From: Fictibacillus sp. FJAT-27399
GTDB lineage: Bacteria; Bacillota; Bacilli; Bacillales; Fictibacillaceae
Direction of reading: 5' to 3'
NCBI RefSeq assembly: GCF_001510655.1
Contig: NZ_LMVC01000002.1
Location: 1,656,388-1,720,387 of the forward strand
DNA length: 64,000 nt
The notes under the pieces were generated by a model. That model was given only the letters and a program-made list of their open reading frames with translations, made no database searches and was not told the DNA's origin. Made by a program: the position numbers and the translations under genes. This document shows, piece after piece, positions 51,503 through 54,153 of the stretch; positions within the stretch are counted from its first letter, which is position 1, and every line of letters begins with the position of its first letter.

Positions 51503-52813
51503 TTAACCTGCCGCGTTGGGAGCAACTGACTTTTGTTTTTCTGTCCCTGCCATTTTTCTATCATGCAGACGGAACATCACGTGATATAAGCCTGCACTGA
51601 TTACGGTTAGAACGAACAGCATAAAGAACGTCCATTGAAAACCAATCCACATGGTAAGCGGAATTGCTAACGGTGCTAAGCTTCGCCCGATGGAGAAACG
51701 CAGTCCTGCTGCGGCAAAATATTGTCCGCGCATATGTTCCGGAGCCAACTTGGAGATAAAGCTCTCCTGAATGCCGACGACCATCAGCTCAGCAGCTGTA
51801 AAGACGGTAATAGCCAGGAAAAGGAACCAGATGACTGTCGTGTTGCCGTAAAGCAGCATACCTACTCCATATAAAAGAGAGGAAATGACAAAGATGTTTC
51901 CTTCTTTGTATTTGTTCATCCACTTTGACATAAAAACGGTAAACAGCGCGACCAATAAACCATTTGTTGATACGATGTAACCGAACGCTTTTTCACCTGA
52001 AAGCGATAGTGACCAGTCACCGAGATGAAGCAGCGTCTGTACAGGAACCTTTTCTGTCGTATACACCGCAATCAATAAATCAAGCTGCATAAAGGTCTGT
52101 GCGACGAGCACACCTGCCAGAATAAACAATAGGAAAAGTTTATCTTTTGCAATTACCCGGTAATCTCTCAACTGATTCCAGACGACCTCGGACCATTTTT
52201 TCGGCTCGCCGTTCTTGTCTTCAACAATCGGCTTCTTCTCCGGCACGGTTTCCCTGATAAACCTCTGCAGGACAAAAGTCAGGATAATGCCAACAATCGT
52301 ACAGGCCAGCAGCAATTCAAACCGGTAGTCGAAAAAGAAGATGCTTCCCAATGCCGGTCCGAACACAACTGAAATGTTAATGCTCGTATAAAAGACAGCA
52401 AACACTTCACTGCGGTTCTTCTCAGGCACTACATCCGCGATCATTGCATGGCTTGCCGGCCAATACAAAGATCCGAACAAACCTAATGCCGTAAACGCCA
52501 AAAAAGTCAGCACAGGCGAATTCAGCCAAGGAGAATTGGCCAGTGCGAACAGAGCAAAGGAAACTGCCTGCCCTGCACCGGCAACCACCATCATTTTCTT
52601 TCTTCCGAATGTATCGGCACAATAACCGCCGACCAGGTTGGTTACGACTCCCACCAACTGGGAAGCGACCAGCAGCATACCGGCTTGTTCTTTTCCAAGT
52701 TCATCGGAAAAATAAATCGCCATATACGGGAAAAACATCCAAAACAGCAGATTAATTACAAACTCTCCCAAAAGCCGAACTTTAATATTTCTGTCCCAAT
52801 CTTTCCACTTCAT
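51503..52813 (-). CDS. MFS transporter, probable drug exporter (YttB-like)
   Basis: The 436-residue protein has 12 predicted membrane segments and the MFS loop motif GGYCADTFGRKKMM between helices 2 and 3, with a long central loop near residue 200 (ETVPEKKPIVEDKNG). It begins MKWKDWDRNIKVRLLGEFVI. Related proteins are annotated as multidrug efflux; the substrate here is unknown. I chose ATG at 52813; its SD is weak. A 380-base structured leader with a small ORF and a terminator precedes it, suggesting induction by translation inhibitors, which would fit an antibiotic exporter. Confidence 0.88.
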   Translation of the reverse strand: MKWKDWDRNIKVRLLGEFVINLLFWMFFPYMAIYFSDELGKEQAGMLLVASQLVGVVTNLVGGYCADTFGRKKMMVVAGAGQAVSFALFALANSPWLNSPVLTFLAFTALGLFGSLYWPASHAMIADVVPEKNRSEVFAVFYTSINISVVFGPALGSIFFFDYRFELLLACTIVGIILTFVLQRFIRETVPEKKPIVEDKNGEPKKWSEVVWNQLRDYRVIAKDKLFLLFILAGVLVAQTFMQLDLLIAVYTTEKVPVQTLLHLGDWSLSLSGEKAFGYIVSTNGLLVALFTVFMSKWMNKYKEGNIFVISSLLYGVGMLLYGNTTVIWFLFLAITVFTAAELMVVGIQESFISKLAPEHMRGQYFAAAGLRFSIGRSLAPLAIPLTMWIGFQWTFFMLFVLTVISAGLYHVMFRLHDRKMAGTEKQKSVAPNAAG

Positions 52814-52903
52814 CCCTATCACTCTCTTTTCATATGTTTCAATCAAATAACAATCAACCGATCTCTTGAGCGCTTATTATTGGAAAGTGCTGAAATTGGG
52901 CAT

Positions 52904-52945
52904 AAAAAAGCCTATAGCTGCGCATTCCACGTCAACTATAGGCTT
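52904..52945 (-). terminator. Terminator within the MFS leader
   Basis: On the minus strand, AAGCCTATAG pairs with CTATAGGCTT around an 18-base loop, and the T-run TTTTTT overlaps the end of the stem. It stands 91 bases before the MFS start. Confidence 0.85.
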
Positions 52946-53089
52946 CTATTACGTGCTGAAGGCTATAGCATGACAAATGGGTCCATCGCTCAAGAGAAAA
53001 GGTCATAACTAAATAAATCACACTTGTACGCTATAACGTAAGGAAACAGAGCTCCTTCAGCCGTCCGGTACAACATTTGATTTAGTTAG

Positions 53090-53128
53090 TTATTTAGCAG
53101 ACACCTTTTCTTGAACAATGGGTTTCAT
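53090..53128 (-). CDS. Leader peptide of the MFS attenuator
   Basis: The 12-residue frame MKPIVQEKVSAK starts at ATG 53128, nine bases after GGAGG, and ends TAA. Its coding sequence forms one arm of the long inverted repeat. An overlapping ATG at 53136 is too close to the SD. Translation of this ORF would disrupt the hairpin. Confidence 0.65.
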   Translation of the reverse strand: MKPIVQEKVSAK

Positions 53129-53164
53129 TTGTCATTGCCTCCATCTCATTTATCTCTCTCTCTA

Positions 53165-53193
53165 AATTTACCATATTCAAATTGTTACGACAA
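53165..53193 (-). promoter_or_regulatory. Sigma-A promoter of the MFS leader
   Basis: TTGTCG (53188-53193) and TAAATT (53165-53170) are 17 bases apart, with TG before the -10 (TGGTAAATT). The -35 box begins immediately after the yhaM stop codon. Confidence 0.68.
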
Positions 53194-54153
53194 TTACTTT
53201 TTTGCTAATTCTTTTTCAAAAAGCGGTTTGTAGAGGCTGCGGTTTTCCAGAGGGAAGATTTTTTCCGTGAATTCCCCTGGTTCCACCTTGACCAGCGCTC
53301 TGTCCATCATGTTGATTTTCGCATCGAAATTATCAATCATATGAAGGATCTCCGCTTCACGGATCATCGGTGCTTTCGGGCTTCCCCATTCTGGTTTGCT
53401 ATGATGGCTTAACACGAGATGCTGAAGGACCGTTACTTCCTCTCCTTCAATTTCCAGTTCTTTTGCGATAATCCCGATCTCATTCACCATAATGGAAATG
53501 TGGCCGAGGAGCTTTCCTTCCAGCGTATAGTTGGCAGCCACAGGACCGGACAGTTCAATCACCTTGCCCAGGTCATGAAGGATGATGCCGGAATAAAGCA
53601 GATCAGTATTAAGCGAAGGATACAGGGTTGATATTCCCCTGGCCAGATCAAGCATGGACACGACATGGTAGGCAAGACCAGAAACGAATTCATGGTGATT
53701 TTTCACGGCTGCAGGGAACTTTAGGAAATCATCCTGATATTTCTTTAAAAGGTTCCTTGTAATTCTCTGGATGTTAGGATTTTGCATCTCAAAAATGTAC
53801 TGTGTGATTTTCTCCATCATCACATCTTGTGTAAGCGGTGCTGTTTCTACAAAATCACTAATCTTCACGCCGTCAATCTCAGATGCCGGACGGATATGTT
53901 TGAGCTTGAGCTGCATCTTTCCTCTGTAGTTGCTCATATCACCGGTAACTTTGATCAAAGCCTGTGGAACATATTGCTGTTCGTCCTCCGGGGAGCAGTC
54001 CCATAGTTTTGCATCGATATCTCCTGTCTGGTCCTGCAGGATTAGGTTTAAAAAGGGTTTACCGTTGCTTGCTGTAGATTTTGTGGATGATTTTATCATT
54101 AAATAGGAGTCTACCACTTCTCCCACTTTATATTGAGCAAGACCTTTTTTCAT
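53194..54153 (-). CDS. yhaM: 3'-5' exoribonuclease YhaM
   Basis: The 319-residue enzyme has an N-terminal OB-fold (residues 10-90, [16 protein letters not shown]) and an HD domain with [16 protein letters not shown] and a metal-binding [13 protein letters not shown] segment. It trims RNA 3' ends in a Mn-dependent way. ATG at 54153 follows GAGGTGGC. Close in length to the B. subtilis protein. The MFS leader promoter starts right behind its stop. Confidence 0.94.

Follow-up and report, generated by a model that had tools for sequence, protein, structure and literature searches.

The question raised by this locus is whether a ribosome working on a short upstream open reading frame (ORF) decides if RNA polymerase reaches the exporter gene behind it. 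A first-pass annotation of the window (the whole 64,000-nucleotide stretch of Fictibacillus sp. FJAT-27399 DNA analyzed here) had postulated a leader-peptide attenuator ahead of a major facilitator superfamily (MFS) exporter, consisting of a promoter, a Shine-Dalgarno (SD) sequence, a 12-codon ORF, a long inverted repeat, a terminator, and an 11-bp alternative pairing that was thought to compete with the first stem. Each of these elements was found on the minus strand where it had been placed (Table 1), and the idea of an attenuator is supported by the comparative results below. The protein encoded downstream matches Pfam MFS_1 (E 1.6e-49), and its nearest relative of solved structure is LmrP (PDB 6t1z; E 2.5e-25, residues 5-410); among the matches listed for it (25 of 26), none reached an NCBIfam cut-off. 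LmrP of Lactococcus lactis is a related exporter but a distant one, and the substrates ascribed here to the window protein are presumptive. On the other side of the leader, a gene at 53194-54153 (minus strand), which we take to be yhaM-like, ends immediately before the leader promoter.

Table 1. Positions of the leader elements and the exporter gene in the window
Feature	Coordinates	Strand	Details and basis
Promoter TTGTCG-17-TAAATT	53165..53193	-	-35 TTGTCG 53193-53188, -10 TAAATT 53170-53165
SD GGAGGC of leader ORF	53137..53142	-	can also pair with GCCTTC 52963-52958
Leader ORF MKPIVQEKVSAK	53090..53128	-	12 codons + stop, ATG to TAA; sequence
Anti-antiterminator hairpin (1:2)	52957..53143	-	arms 53143-53090 and 53016-52957; holds SD, start, and ORF
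Candidate RNA polymerase pause hairpin	53014..53084	-	inside the 1:2 loop; shuffles over 17 loci
TTATTT, candidate NusG pause motif (TTNTTT)	53011..53016	-	recurrence over 17 loci
Arm 2 segment pairing with element 4	52987..52997	-	exact 11-bp helix
Antiterminator (2:3)	52927..52980	-	52980-52958 with 52946-52927
Intrinsic terminator + T run	52904..52946	-	stem 52946-52907, T run to 52904
Element 4, 11-bp complement to arm 2 downstream of the terminator	52862..52872	-	shuffles and alignment
LmrP-like MFS transporter gene, 436 aa	51503..52813	-	Pfam and structure-database similarity

The leader as a whole (53165-52814) folds to -108.3 kcal/mol, compared with -79.5 +/- 5.8 for shuffled sequences (z -5.0; 0 of 100 shuffles as good). 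A TG sits one base upstream of the -10 element, and a promoter of the pattern TTGNNN-16/18-TA(A/G)ATT begins 63-74 nt upstream of the ORF in all 16 Fictibacillus leaders and in that of Salirhabdus (L056). This pattern is absent at -63 to -74 in the other nine leaders from outside Fictibacillus; L100 has a similar site at -80. A simple consensus scan of 52700-53400 called neither the leader promoter nor the terminator, the former because it has 8 of 12 consensus matches where the scan required 9, and the latter probably because of an internal bulge in the long stem.

To place the leader among its relatives, genome contigs were scanned with the window MFS protein, and the best 80 of 206 loci were taken. 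The genus set of the window genome comprises seven genomes, and its nearest named relatives are Fictibacillus. The leader layout is present at 24 of these 80 loci: 14 in Fictibacillus (L032-L044, L046), two each in Scopulibacillus, Pullulanibacillus, and Sporolactobacillus, and one each in Tuberibacillus, Caenibacillus, Terrilactibacillus, and Salirhabdus euzebyi. Together with the window and a genome of the same species (L003), they give 26 leaders, in which ORF, hairpin, and terminator follow one another in a constant order across genera. Recognition of a leader relied partly on the ORF, and in some cases on inspection by eye, so that finding the ORF in 26 of 26 leaders partly reflects how they were chosen. 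Conservation of ORF and stems, which the first-pass annotation had suggested looking for in relatives, was also found at a locus of the same genus that had been held out of the RNA model: L008 matches the model with E 1.4e-10 and possesses, at the equivalent place, an ORF encoding MKINVQVKVPVIK, the ORF hairpin, and the terminator. This held-out locus confirms most of the leader layout.

The same RNA model was run against 199 genomes of the order, where 11 match at E <= 0.01 and nine at <= 3e-7, and against 398 genomes of the class, an overlapping sample in which 18 match; two of these lie below 1e-6, and both were already among the order matches. Of the nine strong matches, the window and L117, L119, and L124 were read with the same MFS gene next, and the other five lie in reverse orientation; no match below E 1e-4 stood ahead of a gene other than this MFS gene among the four for which the next gene was read. 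Matches between E 1e-4 and 0.01 were set aside as ordinary terminators by their appearance to the eye, and plasmids and phages gave no match for the leader. In a tree of the MFS proteins (the window plus 79 of the selected loci; L089, with a translation shorter than 300 aa, is not included), 24 leader-bearing rows and six divergent Sporolactobacillus rows form one 30-row clade (99/97), and Salirhabdus euzebyi is the one leader-bearing row outside it. No leader of the same kind was recognized for the other 49 rows, the survey of upstream regions having covered the loci listed up to L075 and from L084. Some of the leaderless MFS genes also closely follow what appears by eye to be a yhaM-like gene.

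Competing pairings involve arm 2 and the terminator. The 1:2 duplex, formed in the window by 53143-53090 with 53016-52957, has a predicted energy of -52.7 kcal/mol, and 0 of 300 shuffles are as good. In most of the leader rows seen (all 26, except parts of L043 and L044), 0 or 1 of 300 shuffles are as good; the duplex is weaker in L047, L050, and L053 (44, 36, and 41 of 300, respectively). The antiterminator, which joins the 3' portion of arm 2 to the loop and 5' arm of the terminator, reaches -24.3 kcal/mol in the window (4 of 300 shuffles as good), close to the -22.8 kcal/mol of the terminator hairpin. Since GCCTTC both pairs with the leader SD and serves the antiterminator, a ribosome on the ORF would free it. 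In a 15-row MAFFT alignment of Fictibacillus, which leaves out L003 and in which slid pairings served as controls, all cells are paired for the SD pairing (90 of 90) and for the stem of the terminator (150 of 150). For the antiterminator the count is 123 of 156, which only slightly exceeds the best slid version (100). Its upper part (32 of 60) falls under the best slid version (35), and the codon 8-9 part of hairpin 1:2 (68 of 135) falls under two slid versions (78 and 84). The sequence around the leader start resembles the terminator loop, as would be expected of two segments that share one partner within arm 2; the loop is GACGUGG in the window (52933-52927), and Sporolactobacillaceae often have GGGCGUGGU or a GCAUGGU-like form.

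Folding in two states, which the first-pass annotation had also proposed, gave an answer that depends on how much of the terminator has been made. When the terminator 3' arm is still unmade, occupying the ORF lifts the predicted probability of the antiterminator by 0.2 or more in 17 of 26 leaders, with the window going from 0.23 to 0.91; in the other 9 of 26, and in L008 (0.78 to 0.80), occupancy hardly shifts it. Once the terminator has been made in full, however, equilibrium favors it in 21 of 26 leaders despite an occupied ORF (0.98 in the window), and the antiterminator in only five. The proposed switch must then be kinetic, because the terminator beats the antiterminator at equilibrium. 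In these models, anti-antiterminator, antiterminator, and terminator are mutually exclusive, and the window antiterminator is predicted to be favored kinetically only.

A candidate pause motif recurs among the leaders. Of 17 chosen loci, 15 have TTNTTT somewhere downstream of the stop codon and upstream of arm 2 (8.5 expected); in 13 of them its first base lies 24-34 nt ahead of the arm-2 bases that pair with codon 5 (2.4 expected), a place that was fixed after the offsets had been seen. The motif is missing at that place in L032, L047, L049, and L052, and missing altogether in L008. Across the 17 loci, hairpins immediately preceding the motif's place outdo shuffled sequence (Fisher 1.4e-9), although the window hairpin taken alone is not significant (25 of 200 shuffles). 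For this and the other Fisher sums given below (element 4 and ribosome-binding site helices), 17 of the 26 loci were picked as less alike, and the values are only indicative because these loci are not fully independent. A pause at TTATTT would allow a ribosome to load before arm 2 is made.

Taken together, these results make it likely that the leader is a ribosome-mediated transcription attenuator built like those of vmlR and tlrB in Bacillus subtilis. From the sequence, its conservation, and the competing pairings, we infer the following course of translation, pausing, stalling, termination, and induction. RNA polymerase would start at the promoter, transcribe the 12-codon ORF, and probably pause at TTATTT. 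If the ribosome completes the ORF and departs, ORF and SD would pair with arm 2 as the anti-antiterminator, the terminator would form, and transcription would end near 52904. If instead the ribosome stalls on the ORF, arm 2 would be left free, its 3' part could pair with the terminator's 5' arm and loop, and polymerase would continue into the gene for the LmrP-like exporter. Stalling would probably be brought about by one of the pump's own substrates, an antibiotic binding to the large ribosomal subunit. After read-through, element 4 and arm 2 would pair and so seal the antiterminated fold, perhaps also aiding the exporter ribosome-binding site (RBS), which is speculative.

What the ribosome senses might be sought in the peptide. 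The ORF is 12-14 codons long in all 26 leaders (12 codons in 15, 13 in two, and 14 in nine), a length expected for 8.5% of random ORFs. Codon 5 encodes Val in 24 of 26 leaders, codon 6 Gln in 20, and codon 9 Val in 20. In-frame amino-acid agreement among 22 ORFs (the set excludes L003, L033, L038, and L041) exceeds column shuffles, 4 of 500 being as high; the corresponding counts are 9 of 500 for ten ORFs outside Fictibacillus and 11 of 500 for eight within it. Variability by codon position shows no third-position excess of the kind expected from coding constraint only, the likely reason being that these nucleotides are engaged in pairing as well. The macrolide arrest motif R/K-X-R/K was tried as an explanation and dropped, being absent from the window peptide and present in 6 of 26 leaders only. 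This lack of a conserved known arrest signature would suit the same attenuator with stalling caused by a metabolite, amino-acid shortage, or generally slow translation rather than by an antibiotic. We consider such a cause unlikely: a run of at least three identical residues, as in amino-acid leaders, is absent from all 26 peptides, the gene downstream is LmrP-like, and the described leaders of the same build considered here sense drugs (PMC9226507, PMC6851288, PMC4335068, PMC4191407).

The proposed attenuator assigns the 11-bp pairing a place other than the one first given to it. The pairing itself is real and largely conserved; however, it does not overlap the terminator stem, as the 2:3 antiterminator does, and as an antiterminator it is ruled out, since its 3' side lies downstream of the terminator and it closes only after read-through. 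Element 4 thus cannot decide the first termination event. In the window, 52997-52987 and 52872-52862 form an exact 11-bp helix (3 of 1000 shuffles as good), and it also exceeds shuffles when loci are combined (Fisher 4e-12 for the 17, 9e-6 for the ten from outside Fictibacillus). The 15-row Fictibacillus alignment has it paired in 153 of 165 cells, with double changes at 4 of its 11 base pairs, compared with 75-83 cells and 1-3 pairs for slid controls. L008 forms 11 bp too, in another register (13 of 1000 shuffles), and the helix is weak in L039, L047, L049, L051, L052, and L101 (147, 530, 422, 475, 105, and 369 of 1000 shuffles, respectively). These values come from a gap-free helix score, adopted for 2:4 in place of a gapped duplex score. 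The latter is weak (89 of 300 shuffles as good in the window) because that program tends toward long duplexes with gaps. In the window fold predicted with the terminator arm excluded, the element 4 helix closes over the antiterminator, and in some Fictibacillus loci element 4 lies in the loop of a helix over the exporter RBS. Element 4 may be a lock on the antiterminated fold or, as has been suggested for vmlR (PMC9226507), a second translational layer.

It has to be asked whether control is then mainly translational, as in erm genes, with the region after the terminator hiding the exporter RBS and arm 2 releasing it. Some Fictibacillus loci point this way, the RBS helix being matched by only 2, 1, and 2 of 1000 shuffles in L037, L038, and L041, and reaching Fisher 0.0045 over 17 loci. 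Furthermore, the RBS opens in the predicted read-through fold of L032 (0.47 to 0.80), L044 (0.36 to 0.68), and L056 (0.43 to 0.82), and a second layer of this kind is described for vmlR (PMC9226507) and tlrB (PMC6851288). However, in the window 309 of 1000 shuffles are as good as the helix, and loci from outside Fictibacillus give no significance either (Fisher 0.34); on these grounds SD sequestration was not taken to be a general feature. RBS openness is also near-constant in the window (0.39 to 0.43) and drops in others, among them L045, L047, and L053. Mainly translational control is slightly less likely still than stalling by something other than an antibiotic.

Returning to the transcriptional switch, a more elaborate form of it can be imagined. 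The peptide (Val at 5, mostly Gln at 6, mostly Val at 9) could be a new inducer-dependent arrest peptide without R/K-X-R/K, specific for the pump's substrate class, and at the same time arm 2 could be a three-way switch, with element 4 copying the pairing face of the ORF beyond the terminator to allow a second decision after read-through. We put this combined proposal forward tentatively and regard it as rather doubtful.

Conserved terminators and antiterminators are also found in riboswitches, and the short ORF might be incidental to a ligand-binding RNA. This is very improbable, because no Rfam covariance model reaches its gathering score in the window or, with the limit set at E 1, matches the leader of any of 11 relatives (five matches fall elsewhere in those loci), and because the conserved 5' element is an ORF with its own SD, start, and stop. 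Least credible of all is an ordinary terminator of the yhaM-like gene followed by an independent exporter promoter, for although that gene ends directly before the leader promoter, the constant order of ORF, hairpin, and terminator across genera speaks against coincidence, as does the lack of a consensus-type promoter in 52700-53400 by a scan that misses the leader promoter too.

Among known systems, the proposed attenuator is close in build to that of vmlR, with a looser likeness to tlrB. vmlR (PMC9226507) shares the upstream ORF inside an anti-antiterminator hairpin, the antiterminator, the intrinsic terminator, the TTATTT NusG pause motif, and a long-range pairing predicted in the read-through RNA. 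It differs in being an ABCF gene with a 3-codon ORF (MIN), whereas the window leader precedes an MFS gene and its family has ORFs of 12-14 codons, and its pause motif belongs to a separate stem-loop after the ORF hairpin rather than to the start of arm 2. tlrB (yxjB; PMC6851288) shares a short leader peptide (9 aa) and a terminator. It is subject to NusG pausing with a pause hairpin and to ribosome stalling at RYR, and in these the window leader may resemble it; however, tlrB is a methyltransferase gene, and the window family has no conserved R/K-X-R/K. In bmrB-bmrCD of B. subtilis (PMC4191407), a leader peptide likewise governs transcription of a multidrug exporter through a terminator and antiterminator, but the leader has 53 aa, the terminator lies inside the ORF, and the exporter is an ABC transporter. 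cplR of Clostridioides difficile (PMC10201436) shares an upstream ORF in a 5' hairpin, and a terminator and antiterminator, and it is under combined transcriptional and translational control, in which the window leader may resemble it; it differs in being an ABCF gene with the ORF MRI, whose terminator itself hides the SD of the gene.

The first-pass annotation had considered the coupling of such a leader to this YttB-like MFS gene and this peptide undescribed. An MFS efflux gene behind a leader-peptide transcription attenuator is already known from mef(E)/mel (PMC4335068), with another peptide (MTASMRLR) and on a mobile element rather than at a chromosomal place. For the LmrP-like case, no description of this leader was found within the open-licence PMC literature, nor any of a leader peptide in Fictibacillus. 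Thus, the kind of antibiotic-sensing switch is known, and what appears to be new is the family and the LmrP-like gene downstream. If the attenuator operates as proposed, the LmrP-like MFS exporter of Fictibacillus and Sporolactobacillaceae would come under direct ribosome sensing, as do vmlR, tlrB, bmrCD, and mef(E). The conserved leader peptide is a candidate to probe for drug-dependent arrest, and an inducer, if found, would also indicate the natural substrate of the pump. The related leaders, in addition, offer a comparative system for the joint evolution of antiterminator, pause site, and leader ORF.

Several loci at the edges of the family deserve mention. Six divergent Sporolactobacillus loci lay outside the set from which the RNA model was built; L063, L067, L059, and L064 match it with E 1.7e-5, 4.8e-4, 0.04, and 0.56, respectively, and L071 and L104 have no match at E 1. 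All six retain a terminator of the same look, and L064 was joined to the group by its place in the MFS tree and its upstream terminator. In the other five, which were omitted from later counts as divergent, the ORF was chosen by eye; it is longer (33-39 codons) and may extend into arm 2, and no convincing 1:2 duplex was found (88 to 210 of 300 shuffles as good). These Sporolactobacillus loci may represent a diverged variant of the switch. A Bacillaceae-1 RNA (RF01690, 49.2 bits) lies at 2047-2111 of L053, on the strand opposite the Terrilactibacillus leader and upstream of it. In Salirhabdus euzebyi (L056, 2064-2501), a Fictibacillus-like promoter and the leader MKSDVQGKVIAC accompany an exporter from outside the leader clade, and its sister L048 has no RNA-model match; transfer of the leader and its repeated loss are both possible. 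In three Thermoactinomycetaceae loci (L075, L086, L098), the 330 nt upstream of the MFS gene contain a strong terminator of another type, accompanied in L075 and L098 by a short ORF downstream of a GGAGGTGGAA stretch; these loci possibly represent an independent attenuator ahead of the same exporter family. Finally, L109 bears the name Chryseobacterium sp. ISL-80, yet its exporter falls with those of Mesobacillus in the MFS tree, so that a labelling error or contamination of the record is probable.
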